DNA of 64,000 bases from Nitrospirota bacterium (lineage in GTDB: Bacteria; JACPQY01), in assembly GCA_016180645.1 (NCBI GenBank), contig JACPAV010000010.1, positions 1 through 64,000 of the forward strand, given 5' to 3'. Shown here one piece after another: positions 2 to 50,216 of this stretch. Numbering within the stretch: position 1 is the first letter of the stretch; each line of letters begins with the position of its first letter. The notes beneath the pieces were generated by a model, which saw only the letters and a program-made list of their open reading frames with translations, had not been told where the DNA came from and did no database searches. Made by a program: the position numbers and the translations under genes.

Positions 2-3000
2 GATCCTAATTCAAACGATTTCGGCGACCTCAACGTGGTGGAGTGGAGGGGTACCGTCTACACGACCCTCGCGGACTGGCAGGGGTCCGGCAACGGCTTT
101 GACGCGAATGCCACGGAGGGCGCCCCGCAGTTCATCAGCACGCAGGCTCCATTCGATTTTCACGAGCGGTCCAACTTTGGAACGTGGTGCCCCTGCGGGA
201 TGCAGGACGACCCCCTCGACGGCTATCCGGCCACTCCGATCTGCAACGGCTGCTCCGCGGGTGTGAACGCGGCCTGTGACCGGACCACCGCAGACCCCGA
301 TTGCTGGTTCACCTTCTCCAACCATTCCCTGGCCATCGATACCGGAGCGAACGCCGGTTCATACACCAGCTTCTCGAATGAAGTGAAGGACAACGGCGGA
401 CGGCGGAACGCCGGCCGCTACGGGGATACCACCGAGGCCTCCCTCTCCGGCTGTCTCACCTTCGACAACTCCTGGGTGGGGAAGACGAACACGTCGTGGA
501 GCACGGCGAGCAACTGGTCCACGGCGGGCGTACCCGGCGCGGGCCAGGCCGTCTGCATCGGCGACCCCGCCGGCTTCGCGAACAATCCGATCCTTAACGC
601 GGACAGCATCATCGGCTCGCTCACCGTCCGCTCCGCATTCGGGTCCGGGCTTCTCGCCGGGGTCCTCGTCATGGACAATGCGAGCGGCACGGGAGGCGGC
701 GTCTGCGGAGGCGCCACGCGGGATTGCATTCTCACCGCGACGGGTAGTGTCGATTTGCAGACCGGCGCGACGCTCACCTTCACGGCAGGCGACGCGGGAC
801 GCCTGCGTATCGGGCGCAACTTCACCCAAACCGGCGCCTTCGGCACGAACAGCGGAACGGTTGAACTCTGCGCGGGCGCCGATGACGCCGCCGTGCCTGG
901 AAATCCGGATTGCGGCACGGCCGCAACACAGTGCATCGACGCCTCGGGCGATTTCTGGACGCTCAAAGTGACGAACGCGCTCGGCGCCTCCGCCGCCTGC
1001 CCGGCGCCGTGCGCGGGGTCCGGGTTCGTCTGCACCGGATCGAACTTCGGCATCAAGAACTCTTTCGACTCGAACGGCAAGTTCCTCGCGTCCGGTGGCG
1101 CCGTCACACTGAACGGCGCGAGCGCCGAAACGATCACCGGCGCGGCGGGCGACGCCTTCGCCACGCTCACGATCAACGATGCGAGCGATCCCGGCACGAT
1201 CACGATGGACTTCAACGGGACCGTTCAGGTGAATACGGCGCTGAACGTGGCCGACGGCAAGCTCTCGATGACGGGTCCCGATGTCCTCGCGTTTGCGAAC
1301 GGCGCCGCGCTCTCGGTGACCATGCCCGACGGATACCTCACGACGAATCTGACCGGCGGCAAGCCGACGATTCGCGGTCCCGTGGACGGCGGCAACAACT
1401 GCACGGGCACGTATGGCTTCAACCTGGACGGCACGGCGTCCACCCTCGACGTCAACGGCGTCGTCCTCCGCTGCCTCAATGACACGGGCCTGAATTTCTC
1501 GGCGGCCGCCTTCGCCCGATTCCAGGATGCCGAGTTCCTTCGCCCCGGACTGGTGGTCACCAACACCTCTCGCCACATCAGCCTCCCGGCGGCAGCCGCT
1601 TTCACCCTCATCGGTCCCACCTTCGACGGCAACGCCAACTACAACATCTACGAGGCGGCCGCGTCGACGGCCACGGTGACCGTGGCGGGCGGGCTCGGCG
1701 CGAAAGGTGAAGAGACGGAGTCGGGAGCCGACGGAACGGGCGAATCGAACGATTGCGACAACGGCGACGATACCTACAGCTCGGGGCTGTTTGGTTTCGC
1801 CGCGAACAACGGTTGCGGCGACAACTCCACCGCCTCGGAAGGAAAGATTTCGTGGACGTATCCCCATTTCACGTGGACGGGCACGATCAACTCCGATTGG
1901 AACAACCCCGGCAACTGGAACCGCATCGACAAGGGGGACTCCTGCACCACCGCCACCGAGCTCTGGCCGGGGCAGAGCGCGGTCTCCCAATACTGCGACG
2001 TCCTCATCATGGACCAGGCCAACGACCCGGTCATGAACGTGGACGGCATCACGCGCGACCTGACCGTGGCCAACAGCGGCGTTCTGAATCCAAACGGCAA
2101 AATCCTGTCCGTCTACGGCAACCTCACCAAGGATTCCAGCTCGACCTTCTCGTCCAGCGTCGACCTTCGGGCCGTGGGCGGCAACAACCAAAACTTCGTT
2201 TTCTCGGGCGCCTCCACGCAGACGATCTCCCAGCTCACCACGAACAAGACCGTGGGCAAAGCGATGACGCTCAACACGAGCCTGATTGTGAGCGGGACGA
2301 CAACGGTGACCTCGGGAACCTTCCGATTGGGCGGCGGAATCACGTTCGAGCCGCAGGCCGCCCTTACGGTGAGTTCGAACGGGACGTGGGATCTCGGATC
2401 GAGCTCCACCACGAAGCGCGGCAACAACGTCACCCTCGACGGGACCTTCGCGTCGGCTGGAACCAGTGTCATCACGACCAACGCGCGCAACGCCGTGGAA
2501 GCCTCCGCCGATCCCTGCGGCGCGCGCAATGCCTTCAATGTCGGCGCCGGCGGCGCCGGAACCCTGAACGTCTCCGGGCTGACGTTCCTCTGCGCCGATG
2601 CAAACGGGTTCCAGATCCAGAACGGCGTGACGCTCACCGCGCTCAACAACGTCACGTTCCGCCATGCCCCGTCGGGTGGGACCCATCTTACGATCAACCG
2701 CGCGGCCGGCTCGGCAGCGAAGACATTCACCGGCATGGCCTTCGATCCGACCTTCAACGAAACCGGCTGCGCCGGGGCCTCGGGTCAAATCGTCCGCAGC
2801 ACGGGCGGCGCGGGATCGGGAGCGATCACGATTCAAGACTACGAGTACGGCGGCACGTGTACCGACCCGGATGCGATGGATACCGAAACGACCATCGACA
2901 ATGTCTGGCGCAGCAAGACCAACTGGTCGGGCAACTGGCGGAAACGTCTTCCCGTCACGATCAACAATACGACCGGCGCCGCCTTCGACGAAGGCCGAAG

Positions 3001-29613: not shown

Positions 29614-30162
29614 TCAGTCCACCGTCGTGCGAATCCGGCGCTCGGCGAGGATTCGCCCTGAATTTCCAAGTCGCCGGCCCACCGAATCGATCGTGCGCTT
29701 GGTGCAGGATTCTGAATCTCCGCCATCCGCATCGACAAATTCGGTGTCGGTGACGCTGATGTAGGCCGTCCCGTTCGGAAGCTGCACTTGGCAAAGGGTC
29801 GGCTTGGCGGTAAGGGAGGACCCCGCGGCCTCGTGACAATCCGGAGTCTCGCCGGGTTGGCCCCAATCGCAGTCCGATTCGAGATTGTGCACGGCCCATG
29901 CCACCCCGGCCTCGGCGATGTAGAGCGCCTCCCCCGAATAGAGCTGCCTCAGGCTGGCCTCCTGCTCGGTCGTCGTGACGCGATAGAGCAGAAGCCCGAT
30001 CGCCGAAATGGCGATGAGGATGAAGAGGGTGGTGATGAGGTTGATGCCTCTGCTGCCAAGAGTTCCTGGTTCCTGGTTCCTGGTTCCTGGTTGCGGAGAG
30101 AGTGTCTCCTTCTTGTTCCTTCCAGGAACGAGGAACTTGCCACCAGGAACTTCTTGAATCAT
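29614..30162 (-). CDS. PilX/GspK-like minor pseudopilin with repeat-derived leader
   Basis: The ATG at 30162 overlaps the upstream gene's stop as ATGA, giving 182 residues. A ~39-residue leader (MIQEVPGGKFLVPGRN, then KKETLSPQPGTRNQEPGTLG) precedes SRG and the hydrophobic helix INLITTLFILIAISAIGLLL. The helix is followed by the PilX/GspK signature YSGEALYIAEAGVAWAVHN. The helix lacks Glu at +5, as is common in this subfamily. Most of the leader is encoded by CAGGAAC heptamer repeats and a duplicated 62-base block. It is the last gene of a three-gene minus-strand pseudopilin operon. Prepilin peptidase should cut after RG, if the unusual leader is tolerated. Confidence 0.8.
   Translation of the reverse strand: MIQEVPGGKFLVPGRNKKETLSPQPGTRNQEPGTLGSRGINLITTLFILIAISAIGLLLYRVTTTEQEASLRQLYSGEALYIAEAGVAWAVHNLESDCDWGQPGETPDCHEAAGSSLTAKPTLCQVQLPNGTAYISVTDTEFVDADGGDSESCTKRTIDSVGRRLGNSGRILAERRIRTTVD
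30062..30092. repeat. Heptamer array GTTCCTG (CAGGAAC), ~4.5 units
   Basis: Four consecutive GTTCCTG units, with no mismatch, inside the leader codons of the minus-strand PilX-like gene, where they encode NQEPGTRNQEPGT. Confidence 0.95.
30091..30152. repeat. 62-base direct repeat, copy 1
   Basis: Matches 30801-30862 with one mismatch (ttgcgg versus ttgagg). It encodes the leader peptide from PGGKFLVPGRN to KKETLSPQPGT in the PilX-like gene. It includes two degenerate AGGAAC units. Confidence 0.95.
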
Positions 30163-30869
30163 CGCTCCGCCAAATCCCTCGGAAAGACGCTCGTTCGGAG
30201 CGTGACGTTGCGCAGGGGGTCCGTGGTGCTCGTCCCGCGGCGAAGCTGGAGCTCGATCTGGACCCGCCAGATGAAACACATGTCGGCGGCGGCCAGCGCC
30301 CCGTCTGGAATCTGGGTCCCATTGTAGCGATAGTATTCGAATAGGTCCGAGTTGACCACGTTCCGGGCAAGGGCTTCCCACGAGGTGCAGGCGTCGCAGG
30401 CGACGGCGCCGACCGCCGCGGCGGTGCCCCGCTCGAGGGTCGTGCCGTTCTTGCGGTAACACACGCGGGGAGTGTCGGGGAGGTTTGAGCGGAACTCGAA
30501 CTGGTCGTCCTTTGCGCAGAGAACGTCGGTCTCGGGCGCGCTGGTGGCACAGCCCGCGGGAACGGGGAGGGTGTTGTCGGAGTCCGAAAGCATCCGGATA
30601 TCCCGCGTCATCTTCTCCAATGCCTCCATCCCCTCCTTCACCATGTCGCGCCGCTCGGCCTGCGCGAGCCCGCCGCGGATGCCTTGGGAAACGATCAGTC
30701 CGAGCACGCCGGAGAGGGCGATCGCGAGGACGATGACGAGCACGAGTTCCAGCAAGGTGAAACCGGAAAAGGTTCCTGGTTCCGGGTTCCTGGTTCCGGG
30801 TTGAGGAGAGAGTGTCTCCTTCTTGTTCCTTCCAGGAACGAGGAACTTGCCACCAGGAACTTTCTTCAC
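30159..30869 (-). CDS. PilW/GspJ-like minor pseudopilin with repeat-derived leader
   Basis: The GTG at 30869 overlaps the upstream stop as GTGA and gives 236 residues. The leader reads KKVPGGKFLVPGRNKKETLS, then PQPGTRNPEPGTFSG. It is followed by the class III prepilin motif FTLLELVLVIVLAIALSGVL, with Glu at +5 and cleavage after G. The mature domain has MVKEGMEALEKMTRDIRMLS, four or more Cys, and a C-terminal IELQLRRGTSTTDPLRNVTL typical of PilW/GspJ. The leader is about 35 residues, against the usual 6-15, and is made of heptamer repeats. Its probable role is in the priming tip complex of a type IV pilus or type II-like pseudopilus. Confidence 0.82.
   Translation of the reverse strand: MKKVPGGKFLVPGRNKKETLSPQPGTRNPEPGTFSGFTLLELVLVIVLAIALSGVLGLIVSQGIRGGLAQAERRDMVKEGMEALEKMTRDIRMLSDSDNTLPVPAGCATSAPETDVLCAKDDQFEFRSNLPDTPRVCYRKNGTTLERGTAAAVGAVACDACTSWEALARNVVNSDLFEYYRYNGTQIPDGALAAADMCFIWRVQIELQLRRGTSTTDPLRNVTLRTSVFPRDLAER
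30772..30803. repeat. Heptamer array GTTCCTG/GTTCCGG
   Basis: Alternating GTTCCTG and GTTCCGG units within the leader of the minus-strand PilW-like gene, encoding RNPEPGTFSG on the minus strand. Confidence 0.9.
30801..30862. repeat. 62-base direct repeat, copy 2
   Basis: Second copy of the block at 30091-30152. It encodes the same leader segment in the PilW-like gene and ends just inside the GTG start at 30869. Confidence 0.95.
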
Positions 30870-31621
30870 CGGTTGACCACCATCGTCGTCAGATCGATGT
30901 AGGCCTGGTCCTTGGTCGTCCCGCCCCACGAGATCCGGACCGAGATGTACTTGAGATCGGCGTTGCCGGTGCCGGGGAAAGTGGACGACGAGTAGGTGGT
31001 GCCGTCGGAGGCGGGATAGCAGGTGCCGAAACATTGCCCGCTGCATGTCCCGTATCCTTTTCCGGACGTGTAGCAGACGGTGACGCGCTCGCGGAAATCG
31101 GAATAGTAGGAAATCGTCGTGCACGTGTTGTCGGCGATCAGGCCGACCCGATCCGTCCCCCCTCCCCCAAGGGGTGGGCAGCCGTCGATTTCGCTGTCCA
31201 TGCCGTCGTAGTCATCGATATCGGTAAAGGGGAGGGACAGGGCGCCGCCGCCGTCGCGCGACTTGTTTGTTTCAGGACCGAGTCCCATCGCATCCGTCAC
31301 CGGACTCGTGCACGTGCAGTAGGTCCCGACGGCCGGGCAGGTGTCCGGCGGCGGACAGTCCACTTGCGCCGACGTTGCCGAGATGTAGTTGTCCCACTTG
31401 TGCGAGAGGATTTCCTCCATGAGGTCTTGGCCCAGGGCGTAGGCTCGATTGTAGCTCTCCACCTGAACGCTGAGTTTCTTGCTCTGCCATATCGGGCGGA
31501 GGGCGACCACGAGGCCGACGGTGAGGAGGACGATCACCACGACCAATTCGATTAGAGTGACCCCTGAAAAGGTTCCTGGTTCCTGGTTCCTGGTTTCGGG
31601 TCCCTGGGCTTTTGACGACAT
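30866..31621 (-). CDS. PilV/MshD/GspI-like minor pseudopilin
   Basis: First gene of the minus-strand pseudopilin operon, 251 residues from an ATG at 31621. The leader MSSKAQGPETRNQEPGTFSG again contains the heptamer-encoded RNQEPGT unit directly before the cleavage site. The helix VTLIELVVVIVLLTVGLVVA has Glu at +5. The mature part contains many Cys (CPPPDTCPAVGTYCTC, CYTSGKGYGTCSGQCFGTCY) and a C-terminal ADLKYISVRISWGG strand pattern seen in PilV/MshD-type proteins. A -10-like TACAAT with upstream TG lies nine bases before the ATG, so the mRNA may be almost leaderless. Confidence 0.82.
   Translation of the reverse strand: MSSKAQGPETRNQEPGTFSGVTLIELVVVIVLLTVGLVVALRPIWQSKKLSVQVESYNRAYALGQDLMEEILSHKWDNYISATSAQVDCPPPDTCPAVGTYCTCTSPVTDAMGLGPETNKSRDGGGALSLPFTDIDDYDGMDSEIDGCPPLGGGGTDRVGLIADNTCTTISYYSDFRERVTVCYTSGKGYGTCSGQCFGTCYPASDGTTYSSSTFPGTGNADLKYISVRISWGGTTKDQAYIDLTTMVVNR
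31571..31608. repeat. Heptamer array GTTCCTG, degenerate end
   Basis: Three GTTCCTG units followed by GTTTCGG and GTCCCTG, in the leader of the minus-strand PilV-like gene, encoding GPETRNQEPGT. Confidence 0.9.
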
Positions 31622-31640
31622 CTCGATGACATTGTAGCAT
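31612..31640 (+). promoter_or_regulatory. Promoter of the four-helix/GspH fusion, overlapping a divergent promoter
   Basis: TTGACG at 31612-31617, 17 bases, TAGCAT at 31635-31640. On the minus strand, TGC-TACAAT (extended -10; TACAAT is the complement of 31631-31636) faces the pseudopilin operon. The two -10 boxes overlap, so initiation in the two directions should compete. Confidence 0.5.
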
Positions 31641-31680
31641 GGTGTGTGCCATAGAAAACTTACTGGAGGGATCGGGGAGC

Positions 31681-32658
31681 ATGAAAGACATCGAAGAATC
31701 GGAAGTTTTCAAGCGGGCTCACACGCTCGTCCTTGAAGTGTACCGACTGACCGAGCGGTTCCCAAACCGGGAAATGTTCGGCATCTCCTCTCAACTGCGG
31801 AGGGCCGCCCTCTCCGTGACTTCCAATCTGGTTGAGGGATCACAACGGATGAACCAAGCGGAGTACCGCCACTTTGTGAGCCTCAGCAAGGGATCGGCCG
31901 CGGAGGCCCGATACCAAACGCGTGTGGCCTACGAACTTGGGTATCTTTTGGAAAAGGATTTCAGAGAACTGTCCGCTTCCTACGAAAGAGTCATCCGCAT
32001 GCTCAGGGGTCTCTACGCGTCGCTCGATGGAAAGCGGCCTTCCAGGAACCAGGAACCAGGGCCTCTCTTGCCCACTAGGAACCAGGAACTAGGAACTAGG
32101 AACTCCGGAGCGTTTACGCTCTTGGAAGTCATCGTCGCCCTCGTCCTCATGGCGGTGCTGGCGGGTATTGCCATCAGCCGGATGTCGGGGTCGAGCCGGG
32201 TGAAACTGGAGCAGGCGGCGCGAATGATGTCGCACGACCTGAACTTCGCGCGCGACTGGGCCATGACGCACGCGACATCCGTGCGGGTGATCTTCGACCG
32301 GTCGACGGAAATCTACGGCGCGTCGTACTGGAGCGTGGATGCCGGCGCGGGAGCCGGCGCCTGGGAATGGATCTCGTCCTACAGCCTCGGGAGCGCCTTG
32401 ACGGTGGATATGGACGAACAGTTCGAAGGGGTGGACATCGCGGACTTCTTCATCGACGGCGCTTCGGTTCCGACGGCCAATCCTCCGGACGGCGTGGGCT
32501 ACACCAGCTTTGCGCTCAGCAGCCTCGGAACGCCGCGGCATGCGTACAACGGGACGCCCCTGACGTCCATGAATCGAGTTACGCTTTCCTTTGGAAGCTA
32601 CACCGAGTACGTGTCGATCCAGCCGTACTCCGGCTACATCTACGTCTGCTCGCAATAG
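31681..32658 (+). CDS. Four-helix-bundle (S23-type) protein fused to a GspH/FimT-like pseudopilin
   Basis: The ATG at 31681 follows a GGGGAG ribosome site. Residues 1-~118 (VFKRAHTLVLEVYRLTERFP, QLRRAALSVTSNLVEGSQR, ARYQTRVAYELGYL) are a complete 23S-intervening-sequence-type four-helix-bundle protein, normally a stand-alone cytosolic protein. With no stop, the frame passes through a heptamer array (RNQEPGPLLPTRNQELGTRN) into SGAFTLLEVIVALVLMAVLA, a prepilin motif with Glu at +5 but Ala rather than Gly at -1. A GspH/FimT-like domain follows (ARMMSHDLNFARDWAMTHAT). The pilin may instead start at an in-frame TTG near 32067. Either it is a true fusion or two genes joined by repeat expansion that removed a stop. 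Confidence 0.75.
   Translation: MKDIEESEVFKRAHTLVLEVYRLTERFPNREMFGISSQLRRAALSVTSNLVEGSQRMNQAEYRHFVSLSKGSAAEARYQTRVAYELGYLLEKDFRELSASYERVIRMLRGLYASLDGKRPSRNQEPGPLLPTRNQELGTRNSGAFTLLEVIVALVLMAVLAGIAISRMSGSSRVKLEQAARMMSHDLNFARDWAMTHATSVRVIFDRSTEIYGASYWSVDAGAGAGAWEWISSYSLGSALTVDMDEQFEGVDIADFFIDGASVPTANPPDGVGYTSFALSSLGTPRHAYNGTPLTSMNRVTLSFGSYTEYVSIQPYSGYIYVCSQ
32042..32105. repeat. Heptamer array CCAGGAA/CTAGGAA
   Basis: Two blocks of CCAGGAA and CTAGGAA units separated by ~20 bases. They form the in-frame bridge between the four-helix-bundle and pseudopilin parts of the 31681 gene. Confidence 0.9.
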
Positions 32659-38523: not shown

Positions 38524-38989
38524 CCCGGCGCTCCCCATCCTGGTCCTTCTCGGCCTCGTGCTGGGTTCGTGCAAGGGGAAACAGCCGCCCGCGCCGGTCA
38601 TGGCTCCCTCTCAGGCCGCCCGACCGCCCGAACTGCGCGAGGAAACTCCGAATGCGGTGAAACGGAGATACCGGTATGTTCCTGAAAATAAGCGTGATCC
38701 ATTCCGGACGTACGTCGAGGCGGCTGAAGTGGTGGGGGCGCGGGATTGCGGCCTGAAGTATCCACGCGAGAATTTCAAGTTGGTCGGCATCATGTGGGGC
38801 GATGTCGCTATAGCGGCGTTTGAAGATGAAGCCGGCGAGGGCTGCTTTCTAAGGGTGGGAGACCGACTGGGAAAGGAGAAAACAGTCATCAGAGAAATCC
38901 TGTTCGATCACGTCGTCGTGGTCGAAAAGCCTCTGGGAATTGGACCGGAAATCTCTCATGAGATGTGGCTCAATGAAGCGGCGAAGTAG
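38504..38989 (+). CDS. pilP: Type IV pilus pilotin-like lipoprotein PilP
   Basis: The GTG at 38504 has an AGGGAAG ribosome site and gives 161 residues; an upstream GTG at 38486 is possible. Lipoprotein signal LPILVLLGLVLGSC, then a Pro-rich disordered stretch, then the PilP core: YVPENKRDPFRTYVE, LKYPRENFKLVGIMWGDVAI, CFLRVGDRLGKEKTVIREIL. PilP bridges PilN/PilO to the N-terminal domains of PilQ. The gene overlaps pilO by 20 bases and pilQ by 17, consistent with tight coupling. Confidence 0.94.
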   Translation: MAHKSYSPALPILVLLGLVLGSCKGKQPPAPVMAPSQAARPPELREETPNAVKRRYRYVPENKRDPFRTYVEAAEVVGARDCGLKYPRENFKLVGIMWGDVAIAAFEDEAGEGCFLRVGDRLGKEKTVIREILFDHVVVVEKPLGIGPEISHEMWLNEAAK

Positions 38990-41168
38990 CTTCGTGGCGC
39001 GAGGCGCGTGGCGCGTGGCGCGGGTCCTGGGGTCTTTTCTTTTTACATTCTTATTCACGATTCACGATTCACGACTCACGACTTACGACCCCCACGATGG
39101 GGGAAGTGCCGCGAGAGGGCAGGAGCCCGGAGCGGCCGGCTCACGACTTGCGACTTACGACTTCCGACTCACGACCCCCCCCGCCTGGGCCCAGGACGAA
39201 GATGAGGAGGAACTGGAGGAATTGGACGAGGTGGAAGAGCCTTCCGAACCTGCTCCATCGGCCCCTTCGCCCAAAGCGGAGCCCTCGCCTGGCGGCAAAG
39301 ACAAGACGACGGAGGCCGGTGAAACTCCGGGCGGCGGTGATGAGGAGGCCGATGAGGACGAGGAGTTGGAGGAAGTCGAGGAGGATGCCTCCGGTCGGGC
39401 GAAAACGCCCGCTCCGGTCGGATTGAACGTGGACAGGATTGACTTCAAGAAAGAAGAGGGGTGGGCGCGCATCGTGGTGACCTGCTCGGCCCCCGTCACG
39501 TACCAGACGTCCCAGATCGAGGCGAAGGCGGTGGCTCTCGATATCCAGGGAGCGATGCTTAAGCCGGACCTCCAAAGGATTCTTGACGTCACCGCGTTTC
39601 AGAGCGTGGTGCATGCCATCGTACCGACTCAATTGCAGGGCGCGCCGAATCCAGTGGTTAGGGTCTTGGCCTCTCTGATGCAGCCGGCGGCGTTTCAAGT
39701 CGATGCGAAGGGAAGAACGCTCCTGTTCTCCTTCAAGGAGCCACCGGGAGGGGTCGCGCCCGGGCCGGCCCAACTGGCCGGGGAGATCAACATCACCGAG
39801 GAGTCGTCGGATCGCCGGAAAGTTTTTACGGGTCCCCGGATTTCCCTCGATTTCAAGGAGATCGATATCGACAACGTTCTCCGGCTCCTGGCGGATGTCA
39901 CCGGGATCAACATTGTGGCCGACGATGACGTGCAGGGGAAAATTACCATCAAGCTGAGCGACGTTCCGGCGGACCAGGCGCTGGATGTGGTGCTCGAGAC
40001 GAAGGGGCTTGGGCGCGTGGAGATCGGCGATCGAATCTTCCGGATCGCGCTAAAGACGCGTCTCGCGGAGGAGATGTCGAAGAAGGTGGAGGCCAAGAAA
40101 GCGGAAGAGAAGGCGGAGCCGTTGGTGACGAAAGTAGTGGCGGTGAATTATGCTTCGGCAGCTGAATTCGAAGGATTGATCAAGGACTCCATCCTGACGG
40201 AACGCGGCAAGATCAAGGTCGACACTCGTTCCAACACGATTGTCGTCAAGGATGTGAACAAGGCCGTCGCCGAGGCGATCACCCTTGTTCGTCGGCTGGA
40301 CATCCAGACCCCCCAAGTGCTGATCGACACCAAGATTGTCGAGGCGACCACCAATTTCCTTCGCACCGTCGGCGCCCAACTGGGCGCCACTTTGAATCTG
40401 GATCAGGCGCGGGGGGTGGCGATGGGTCCGGTAACGGCGGCTCAAGTGGGAGGCGCGGGGGTGACTGGGACGACGGTCCCTTCCCTGAACAACAACTTTC
40501 TGGTGGACTTTCCGGCTGGAGAAATCGGCGCCGGTCGGGGCAGTGGGATAGGGCTTTCGCTGGGCACACTGGGAAACTTTGCCACGGTCAACTTCATTCT
40601 GTCGGCACTGAAGGAATCGGGTGAAGGCAGGGTCGTGGCCAGCCCTCGCGTGACCAGCCTGGACAACAAGGAGGCCATGATTCTTCAGGGCGAAGCGATC
40701 CATATCTTGACCGTGACGGCCCAAGGCTCCGCCGTGCAGGAAATCGAGGCGGTGCTCCGTCTTAGGGTCACACCCCACATCACAACGGATGGAAGTGTTT
40801 ATCTCAAGATCAAGCTGGAACGGAACGAAGCCGATTTCAGTCGACTGGTGGCGGGAATCCCCAACATCATCAGGCGTGAGGCCGAAGCGGAGCTTCTCGT
40901 CCGGAACGGCGAAACGGTGGTCATAGGGGGTGTACATACGCGGATCGCGCGGAAGGCGAAATCCGGCGTCCCCATCTTGTCCGACATTCCAATCATCGGT
41001 ATGCTGTTTAGAAACAGTCAGAGAAGGGAGTCGTCGGATGAACTGGTGATGTTCCTGACTCCGCGAGTGCTCAATTTGCAGAATATCGAAGCTGTCGAGA
41101 CCATCGCCGAGCAGTCGGAAGAGGAGGCACTGAAGGAAATGAAGAAAGACGTCAGCATGGCCAGATAG
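38973..41168 (+). CDS. pilQ: Type IV pilus secretin PilQ with repeat-expanded signal peptide
   Basis: 731 residues from the ATG at 38973. The hydrophobic part of the signal peptide ([13 protein letters not shown]) is separated from the likely cleavage site TPPAWAQ by ~37 residues encoded by heptamer arrays and the 51-base hairpin element ([20 protein letters not shown], then [18 protein letters not shown]). Next come an acidic low-complexity region, an AMIN domain ([20 protein letters not shown]), a secretin/TonB N-terminal domain ([20 protein letters not shown]), an N1 ring domain and the secretin core ([60 protein letters not shown]). It forms the outer-membrane pilus channel. Confidence 0.95.
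38994..39023. repeat. Heptamer array GTGGCGC
   Basis: GTGGCGC, GAGGCGC, GTGGCGC, GTGGCGC inside the pilQ signal-peptide codons (ARGAWRVAR). Confidence 0.9.
39053..39180. repeat. Heptamer arrays ATTCACG/ACTCACG flanking the hairpin element
   Basis: 39053-39088 has ATTCACG x3, ACTCACG, ACTTACG. 39140-39180 has CTCACGA, CTTGCGA, CTTACGA, CTTCCGA, CTCACGA. Both are translated in frame within pilQ as [10 protein letters not shown] and [11 protein letters not shown]. Confidence 0.9.
39089..39139. repeat. 51-base double-hairpin element, copy 1
   Basis: CCCCC-acgat-GGGGG, then GCCGC-gaga-GGGC-agga-GCCC-gga-GCGGC. Copy 2 at 49435-49485 differs at two loop bases and one other. It is embedded in heptamer arrays and translated within PilQ. 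Confidence 0.9.
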
Positions 41169-43917: not shown

Positions 43918-45012
43918 ATGCTGAAGGAACGTATCGCCGTGCTCATGAGCGGCGGAGTCGACAGCTCCGTCGCCGCCGCCCTGCTCAAGGAACAGGGACA
44001 TGACCCTATCGGCCTCACCTACAACATCGGTCCCTCGCGAGTTCACGGAATCGCGGGTTCACGGGATCACGGTTCACGCTGCTGCGGCATGGACGACATG
44101 ACCGATGCCGCGACCATCGCATCCCAACTTGGAATTCCCCACTATGTCCTCAATGTCCGGGATTCGTTCGCGCGCGGGGTCATCGGAGATTTCGTCGAGA
44201 GCTACCTGAAGGGCGAAACTCCGCTGCCCTGCGCCCACTGCAACACGCGGGTGAAGTGGGGAGAAATGGCCGATCGGGCCAGGGAGATGGGGGCGAGCCG
44301 CATGGCCACGGGGCACTATGCAAAAGTCGATTGGGATGCGTCGCGAGGCCGGCACGTATTGAAGCGGGCCATGGATCTTGAGAAGGATCAGTCCTACTTT
44401 CTTTTCGGCCTCAGCCAGGAGCAACTTGCGTCCGCGATCTTTCCGCTTGGGGACCTCACCAAGCCCGAAGTTCGTGAGCGCGCCGAGGCGTTGGGGTTGG
44501 TCGTCTCCGACAAGAAGGACAGCCAGGAGCTTTGCTTCGTTTCCTCCGGCCACTACTCCGAAGTCATTGCGCCTCACGCCTCACGCCTCACGCCTCACGC
44601 CGCCGGAGAGATTGTGGATGTCTCCGGCGCCGTCCTCGGCACTCACGACGGCTTCTTCAAATTCACCGTGGGGCAGCGGCGGGGTCTCGGACTGAACGGC
44701 GGACCTTACTACGTGAAATCCATCGATTCCGCCACGAGGAAGGTCGTGGTCGGCAACGCGGATTCCACATTGACCGACAGCCTGACGGCTCGTGATCCCA
44801 ATCTGATCGGCTACGAGTCTTGGGAGTCAGTGGGGAGGGTTCGCGCCCGAGTTCGATACCGGCACAAAGGCGAATGGGGTTCGGTGCGATGGGACGGCCA
44901 AAGACTGAAGGTGGAGTTTGAAAATCCGGTTCGAGCCGTTGCGCCGGGGCAAGCCGTGGTCTTCTACCGCGAGGATGAAATCGTGGGCGGAGCGTGGATC
45001 ACACCGGGATGA
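43918..45012 (+). CDS. mnmA: tRNA-specific 2-thiouridylase MnmA with two repeat insertions
   Basis: 364 residues. The PP-loop is LMSGGVDSSVAAALLKEQG; the catalytic cysteines are in PLPCAHCNTRVKWG and SQELCFVSSGHY, the DxxYFL-type element is KDQSYFLFGLSQEQL and GQRRGLGLNGGPYYV follows. It thiolates U34 of tRNA for Glu, Gln and Lys. Two stretches look foreign: VHGIAGSRDHGSRC at ~residues 41-54 (44036-44080, TTCACGG-type repeats) and IAPHASRLTPHAAGE at ~218-232 (44571-44603, four CTCACGC units). Both preserve frame and lie in loops beside conserved blocks. Confidence 0.95.
   Translation: MLKERIAVLMSGGVDSSVAAALLKEQGHDPIGLTYNIGPSRVHGIAGSRDHGSRCCGMDDMTDAATIASQLGIPHYVLNVRDSFARGVIGDFVESYLKGETPLPCAHCNTRVKWGEMADRAREMGASRMATGHYAKVDWDASRGRHVLKRAMDLEKDQSYFLFGLSQEQLASAIFPLGDLTKPEVRERAEALGLVVSDKKDSQELCFVSSGHYSEVIAPHASRLTPHAAGEIVDVSGAVLGTHDGFFKFTVGQRRGLGLNGGPYYVKSIDSATRKVVVGNADSTLTDSLTARDPNLIGYESWESVGRVRARVRYRHKGEWGSVRWDGQRLKVEFENPVRAVAPGQAVVFYREDEIVGGAWITPG
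44036..44080. repeat. Degenerate TTCACGG repeat in mnmA
   Basis: TTCACGG, AATCGCG, GGTTCAC, GGGATCA, CGGTTCA, CGC within the coding frame. The period is close to 7 but less regular than elsewhere. Confidence 0.6.
44571..44603. repeat. Heptamer array GCCTCAC in mnmA
   Basis: Four exact GCCTCAC units in frame, encoding PHASRLTPHA. Confidence 0.95.
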
Positions 45013-47383: not shown

Positions 47384-49081
<1,698 letters not shown>

Positions 49082-49496: not shown

Positions 49497-50216
49497 ATGG
49501 CTGACAACATCGGTCGAACCAGTTCGCGTTACGAATTCAGCGCCGATCCGAAGCAATTCGCGCTCCTGCTTGGAGTCGCGGGCCTTTTCGTGGTCGTTGT
49601 TTTCTTTTCCGGAGTTCTTGTCGGGAACATCGTGGCGAAACGACAGGCCAGGCCAACGCTGGCATCGGCGACCGTGCCGGGTGAGGCGGGCGACAAGAAA
49701 AGCGGGGCGATCGACGAAGAGCGGATTTTGAAGGAGTTGGATGCCTCCGCGGCTCCGGAGCCGGGAATGGCGACTCCTCCCGTTGAGTCCGCGCCGCTCC
49801 CCATGGCCGAGCCTGAGCCACCCACCCGGGAGGCAGCTCCACCGCAGATCAAACGGGAGGTTGTGGAACTCACGCCTCCGCCGCCGGTCCGGAAACCGAA
49901 ACCAACATTCGTCCCCTCCGTGAAACCCAAACCAGCTCCCTCACTTGCCACTCGCCACTCGCCACTCGCCACCGGCTCAAGCTACTACTCCGTCCAAGTC
50001 GCCGCCTTCCGGGAGCGGCCGCTGGCGGACCGATTCGCGAACAATTTGAAATCGAAAGCCTACGAAGCGTACGTTGTAAAGGCCAACCTGCCGAGCGGAT
50101 TGTGGTACCGTGTTCGCGTCGGCAAGGTTACTTCCGAGGCGCAAGCCCAGTCCCTCCACTCCAAGCTCGTCAACCGCGAAAAACTCGCCGGCATCATCGT
50201 CCACGAAGGCCGGTAG
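49497..50216 (+). CDS. SPOR-domain inner-membrane protein
   Basis: 239 residues. A short cytoplasmic N-terminus is followed by one transmembrane helix (LLLGVAGLFVVVVFFSGVLV), a Pro/Glu-rich periplasmic linker and a C-terminal SPOR domain (YYSVQVAAFRERPLADRFAN, GLWYRVRVGKVTSEAQAQSL). SPOR domains bind denuded septal peptidoglycan, so a FtsN/DedD-like role in cell division is likely. The linker contains SLATRHSPLATGS, encoded by CACTCGC heptamers at 49944-49975. The ATG at 49497 lies 11 bases after the second 51-base hairpin element, so that element is in the 5' leader. Confidence 0.85.
   Translation: MADNIGRTSSRYEFSADPKQFALLLGVAGLFVVVVFFSGVLVGNIVAKRQARPTLASATVPGEAGDKKSGAIDEERILKELDASAAPEPGMATPPVESAPLPMAEPEPPTREAAPPQIKREVVELTPPPPVRKPKPTFVPSVKPKPAPSLATRHSPLATGSSYYSVQVAAFRERPLADRFANNLKSKAYEAYVVKANLPSGLWYRVRVGKVTSEAQAQSLHSKLVNREKLAGIIVHEGR
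49944..49975. repeat. Heptamer array CACTCGC in the SPOR gene
   Basis: CACTTGC, CACTCGC, CACTCGC, CACTCGC, CACCGGC in frame, encoding LATRHSPLATGS in the linker before the SPOR domain. Confidence 0.95.

Follow-up and report, generated by a model that had tools for sequence, protein, structure and literature searches.

The locus described here raises the question of why four adjacent pilin-like genes carry tandem repeats at the same place in their proteins. It lies in a stretch of 64,000 nucleotides from a Nitrospirota bacterium (contig JACPAV010000010.1, positions 1 to 64,000; in the following, the window) and consists of three consecutive minor-pilin genes on the minus strand and a divergent plus-strand open frame (31639-32658) with a GspH-like prepilin part. 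Just ahead of the prepilin cleavage site, each of the four contains a 7-bp tandem array (AACCAGG) coding for RNQEPGT. The first-pass annotation had suggested that such leaders are either tolerated, being cut off, or used for tuning expression or export. According to our analysis, they are probably (at about 0.6) not purpose-made leaders, but footprints of hairpin elements similar to the intervening sequences (IVSs) of 23S rRNA, or of solo arms of such elements. In such an element, 7-bp tandem repeats would form a pair of inverted arms, which may or may not enclose a gene of the family PF05635 (IVP/S23p). The idea of tolerance seems largely right, the underlying object being an IVP-linked, heptamer-armed element and not a special leader.

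Leaders encoded by heptamers

Period-7 arrays were detected in all four leaders by Tandem Repeats Finder (TRF) and a periodicity scan (Table 1). Arrays of periods 4-6 or 8 were absent from the window, so that the period-7 arrays are not due to chance. Translation confirmed the claim of heptamer-encoded residues, as the RNQEPGT-type peptide stops a few residues before the cleavage site in all four genes. The leaders are indeed unusually long, with 20 amino acids (aa) in the PilV-like (MSSKAQGPETRNQEPGTFSG/VTLIEL, the slash marking the cleavage site), 36 in the PilW-like (MKKVPGGKFLVPGRNKKETLSPQPGTRNPEPGTFSG/FTLLEL) and 39 in the PilX-like protein (MIQEVPGGKFLVPGRNKKETLSPQPGTRNQEPGTLGSRG/INLITT), compared to roughly 5-15 residues in array-free prepilins of the same genome. 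The GspH-like leader (...LPTRNQELGTRNSG/AFTLLEV) comprises 14 or about 157 aa depending on the start. Very long pilin leaders also occur in Streptococcus sanguinis (PMC10191384), and long leaders are thus not unprecedented.

The typical N-terminus of prepilins and type II secretion pseudopilins, a hydrophilic leader ending in Gly or Ala followed by about 20 hydrophobic residues, often with Glu at +5, was found in the PilV-like, PilW-like and GspH-like proteins (GVTLIE, GFTLLE and AFTLLE). The PilX-like protein has no Glu at +5, yet it resembles PilX_N. The start of pilW overlaps the stop of pilV (GTGA) and the start of pilX that of pilW (ATGA), the usual sign of coupled genes. An internal start downstream of the arrays was considered and rejected for these three genes: in none of them does the segment from the array to the cleavage site contain an in-frame ATG, GTG or TTG. 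The arrays should therefore be within the translated leader, and initiation after the repeats appears unlikely from the sequence. The leaders are presumably still processed.

An IVP cassette and its gene-less relatives

The first part of the plus-strand frame is a full-length PF05635 domain, i.e., a 23S rRNA-intervening sequence protein (IVP; E 2.5e-32, 111.7 bits against a curated cut-off of 33.8, positions 1-105 of 106). It also matches TIGR02436 (E 2e-30, 105.2 bits against a cut-off of 24) and is related to a solved structure (PDB 2gsc, E 3e-19). The probable start is the ATG at 31681, which follows GGGGAG. The frame had been described as a GspH-like fusion, of which the prepilin part stands. 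The presumed fusion partner is the IVP gene, which has no stop before the right-hand repeats and continues through them into the prepilin. A fusion protein is possible, as is a separate start of the prepilin at the TTG just before PTRNQELGTRNSG, giving the 14-aa leader and no fusion.

The arrays on both sides of the IVP gene are inverted copies of one another, and the whole forms a cassette of the type (GGTTCCT)n - PF05635 IVP gene - (CCAGGAA)n between the two divergent prepilin genes. Each arm, read outward, gives RNQEPGT; the left arm is the repeat of the PilV leader and the right arm that of the GspH leader. The start codon of pilV is located inside the cassette, between the left arm and the IVP gene. 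In the predicted RNA fold of 31565-32110 both arms build a closing stem of about 27 bp (-217 kcal/mol, z -3.9).

The leaders of PilW and PilX contain near-identical inserts of about 98 nt, which comprise both inverted arms and a short spacer without a gene. The first half of both leaders, VPGGKFLVPG, is encoded by the inverted copy of the same heptamers. Both inserts are predicted to fold into hairpins (PilX -44.7 kcal/mol, z -4.0; PilW z -3.0). The four repeat leaders can therefore be traced to a single cassette and to an insert found in two copies, which makes the earlier argument from four adjacent genes with repeats at the same position weaker than it looks: repeats occur at this position in all four, but two arrays are the arms of a single IVP cassette and two lie in copies of a single insert.

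Table 1. Positions of the pilin genes, heptamer arrays and inserts at the locus.
Feature	Positions	Strand	Evidence and remarks
PilX-like minor pilin gene	29614-30162	-	PilX_N PF14341 E 4e-4, below Pfam cut-off; ATGA overlap; 39-aa leader before G/INLITT
Insert of about 98 nt in PilX leader	30055-30152	-	Inverted heptamer arms round short spacer; near-identical to PilW insert; fold z -4.0
Heptamer array AACCAGG x4.4, right arm of PilX insert; codes RNQEPGT	30062-30092	-	TRF and periodicity scan
PilW-like minor pilin gene	30159-30869	-	GTGA overlap with PilV stop; G/FTLLE motif; 36-aa leader
Insert of about 98 nt in PilW leader	30765-30862	-	Same structure as PilX insert; fold z -3.0
Heptamer array AACC(A/C)GG; codes RNPEPGT	30771-30802	-	TRF and periodicity scan
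PilV-like minor pilin gene	30866-31621	-	TIGR02523 PilV E 3e-5, below cut-off; 20-aa leader; ATG between left array and IVP gene
Left arm of IVP cassette; codes RNQEPGT of PilV leader	31571-31607	-	Arrays, inverted-arm comparison and fold
IVP gene (PF05635/TIGR02436 four-helix bundle)	31681-32070	+	Profile matches, PDB 2gsc
Right arm of IVP cassette; codes RNQEPG and TRNQELGTRN of GspH leader	32042-32104	+	Two heptamer blocks (32042-32060 and 32074-32104); pairs with left arm over about 27 bp
GspH-like prepilin part of open frame 31639-32658	32065-32658	+	PF07963 E 2.6e-6; possible TTG start just before PTRNQELGTRNSG/AFTLLEV

In the proposed scenario, an IVP-bearing copy of the element would have come to lie between the PilV-like and the GspH-like gene, with its arms making up the 3′ portion of both leaders, and gene-less copies would sit in the leaders of PilW and PilX. 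The unit may move, and the IVP protein may take part in this. As the prepilin peptidase would remove the leader, whose sequence is little constrained, and as the AACCAGG arrays contain no stop codon in any frame, in-frame copies of the element could survive.

Small hairpin IVSs without an open reading frame (ORF) exist in Salmonella, and palindromic inserts tolerated in frame within proteins, as assumed here, are known as Rickettsia palindromic elements. The latter differ in size and sequence and lack tandem heptamers. In repetitive extragenic palindromic (REP) sequences of the REP/RAYT (REPIN) type, too, a gene is enclosed by short inverted repeats, and many copies without the gene occur at other sites. 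This likeness is a lead only. The element in the window has no tyrosine transposase, and its arms are tandem heptamers. A close comparison is the 23S rRNA IVS of Coxiella burnetii with an S23p ORF, a terminal stem of 28 bp and upstream tandem heptamers which differ in number between strains (PMC4990558). As there, a PF05635-type gene is enclosed in the cassette by terminal inverted repeats forming a stem, and tandem heptamers adjoin it. However, the cassette is located between two protein genes, both encoding prepilins, and not in a 23S rRNA helix, and its arms are themselves heptamer arrays coding for parts of the neighboring proteins; it is therefore termed IVS-like and not IVS. That S23p-type ORFs serve mobility was already proposed in older work cited in PMC4990558.

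IVP genes and heptamer arrays in other genomes

PF05635 loci from 27 genomes of different families were analyzed for arrays within 300 bp upstream and 350 bp downstream. In 22 of 27 loci a 7- or 8-bp array flanks the gene, and inverted similarity between the flanks with a score of at least 14 was found in 20 of 27, compared to none of 60 control loci. Ribosomal protein L21 loci had neither arrays nor inverted flanks (0/30 each), and ParE toxin loci one array (a TCAT run; 1/30) and no inverted flanks (0/30). Direct similarity between the flanks is rare at IVP loci (2/27). A weakness of this comparison is that the controls may differ from the IVP loci in intergenic content, for which they were not matched, but this would hardly account for the inverted pairing. 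The other IVP genes of the own genome have repeated words on both sides as well, inverted most clearly in contig C7 and with 8-bp units in contig C19. Words vary among cassettes even inside one genome, with five in genome G318. Its loci L248-L257 contain several IVP cassettes, each with its own 7- or 8-bp word and arms that are often inverted.

Furthermore, 20 arrays of period 7 or 8 were found in 400 kb of IVP-containing genomes (in 9 of 20 stretches and 7 of 15 genomes), whereas none was found in 400 kb from 20 IVP-free genomes. Arrays of periods 4-6 and 9-12 were near zero in all sampled sets. In genome G065 (L214 1482-1749), two 8-bp arrays in inverted orientation, separated by about 240 bp, were also observed away from known IVP genes, and are possibly a gene-less element.

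These data bear on simple slippage, by which heptamers would expand during replication in unconstrained sequence, with IVP genes merely sharing such regions. Most arrays are solitary, and stepwise word changes inside arrays fit this process, e.g., in the argS gene (48743-48798; GSEVRDQEPGTRNQEPN), where the word shifts in register from AGGGGTC to AGGAACC. However, slippage leaves the restriction to periods 7 and 8, the inverted copies on both sides of IVP genes and the absence of arrays from IVP-free genomes unexplained, and is quite improbable as the sole cause.

On a broader scale, it is conceivable, though we lean against it, that PF05635 is the working part of a widespread and undescribed class of mobile elements with inverted 7- or 8-bp array ends and a word private to each site. 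Arms of such elements would spread genome-wide and, on meeting genes, supply start codons, leaders, signal peptides and linkers; at the pilin locus, one cassette and two gene-less derivatives would have remade the 5′ ends of four genes. No report of heptamer-flanked IVP genes outside rRNA was found in a partial library, which speaks only weakly for novelty. Should the link hold, the orphan family IVP/S23p, which is known from 23S rRNA and weakly similar to the retroelement protein Avd, would gain a testable role. The heptamer repeats seen in many genomes could then be explained, and a concrete route would lead from inserted DNA to new protein N-termini. It would also serve as a warning that prepilin leaders and signal peptides annotated as long and repeat-like can be real.

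Tolerated sites, switches and tuning

In the own genome and in G001, a relative from a sister genus of the same family, 11 of 25 prepilins carry an array within the leader or immediately before it, compared to about 14 of all 561 genes (Fisher p 2e-10). Because neighboring genes have words in common, the counts lack independence; if grouped, five of six prepilin clusters carry arrays. A prepilin cluster on contig C5 of the own genome contains the words GTCACGA/GCGTCAC. In G001, GTTCTCG and CTTCACN were found in PilW and PilX, and CGCGGCT and CGGCTCA in a second cluster. The exact AACCAGG word combined with the prepilin motif matched only the own genome among 386 diverse genomes. This word is rare, and the wider claim is therefore based on different words and further scans. 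When about 85,000 species genomes were scanned for an exact pattern, two matches were obtained, one in a gspGHIJK operon of a Desulfobacteraceae genome, with heptamer leaders in GspI and GspJ and not in GspG or GspH, and one in a prepilin of WH4.bin1 (MMPRNKEQGTRNKAAG/FTLIEA). Leaders with TTCACNN were found in 2 of 386 further genomes (G286 and G318), and the reversed control pattern had no matches in 386 genomes. IVP genes are present in three of these four genomes. A prepilin gene elsewhere in the own genome (G000:C39; L128 near 1661-1738, minus strand) has its ATG inside a GCTGAAC-type array and a normal leader (MADRSKSG), the array being the source of the start codon.

Dispersed heptamer arrays, mostly beside start codons and, when inside genes, at protein ends, are also known as TAACTGA direct repeats of Beggiatoaceae, Cyanobacteria and Bacteroidetes (PMC4679880). 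In contrast to the many site-private words described here, these have one dominant word per genome, and a link to IVP is unreported. Translational control has been proposed for TAACTGA heptamers adjoining start codons (PMC4679880). Similarly, hairpins just after the coupled start codons could set the amount of minor pilins by acting on translation or export, and the inserts would be kept for it, the second possibility named in the first-pass annotation. The stable predicted hairpins of PilW and PilX agree with this, but words and peptides vary among genomes, 14 of the 25 prepilins have no array and the PilV leader contains one arm without a local hairpin. We consider such tuning very unlikely.

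Array positions in the own genome were determined in about 1.1 Mb of 4.7 Mb, a part of which was chosen for arrays, and rates are given for the unbiased 720 kb only. These contain 15 arrays, of which nine are intergenic, five lie in the first 150 bp of genes and one is in a gene interior. Arrays also occur in the signal peptide of an Amidase_3 protein, in a linker just before the domain of a SPOR protein (49942-49972) and inside conserved enzymes, namely ArgS (48743-48798) and, between two domains, MnmA (44570-44601, HASRLTPHAA). A further one lies near the N-terminus of the secretin PilQ (39053-39089), whose N-terminal region (38940-39175) comprises three different heptamer arrays (GGCGCGT, ATTCACG/ACTCACG and GACTCAC). 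The arrays have an open sense frame and are retained at sites where the peptide can be dispensed with. This favors tolerance, and a similar remark on tolerated sites was made for the TAACTGA repeats in Beggiatoaceae (PMC4679880). The location of 14 of the 15 arrays and the recurrence of the same prepilin position with different words elsewhere thus support tolerance of the cleaved leader, which, rather than use, probably maintains the repeats.

As far as the pilin genes are concerned, phase variation is the main rival explanation. Such a switch is modeled on Neisseria opa with pentamers in its signal sequence, and the arrays likewise are tandem units not divisible by three in a cleaved N-terminus. 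As contingency loci, they would switch a minor pilin off by gain or loss of a 7-bp unit. The coding sequences do contain frame-shifting tandem repeats, since seven is not a multiple of three, and one unit less truncates PilV, PilW and PilX after 20, 55 and 68 codons. Pili are surface structures, arrays with unrelated words recur at the same position, and the heptamer number beside the Coxiella S23p ORF varies among strains (PMC4990558). However, the arrays at the pilin locus, known from one assembly, are short, with 3.5-4.5 units and imperfect repeats in several of them. Two of the four belong to a single cassette as its shared arms, and similar arrays lie in linkers and in ArgS and MnmA, for which an off-switch is not credible. 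Phase variation is therefore regarded as unlikely, although it is the strongest of the alternatives.

Several observations speak against elements as the origin of the leaders. Neither empty sites nor target duplications nor any movement were observed, with G001 as the one family relative; its synteny stops after TruD, and its pilins are located elsewhere on the same contig, so that the pilin locus is non-syntenic. Five of the 27 IVP loci have no detectable array, some prepilin leaders on contig C5 carry arrays without a nearby IVP gene, and G286 has a heptamer leader but no IVP match. The enrichment in prepilin leaders could mean more than tolerance. Finally, an inverted mate within 300 bp was found for only 6 of 68 arrays. 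The rule that all arrays are inverted pairs was consequently rejected, and the remaining 62 arrays require that arms also disappear, spread one at a time or originate from slippage.

Some further repeats were noted in the own genome. The longest array is a perfect 14-unit TCACGAC (L057 7280-7378, G000:C58) on a contig which also carries a second PilM-like gene. A protein of 2316 aa contains eight heptamer arrays of different words (L051 1508-8458, G000:C33). Upstream of the pilin locus, a giant open frame of 8176 aa extends over positions 35-24565 of the window.

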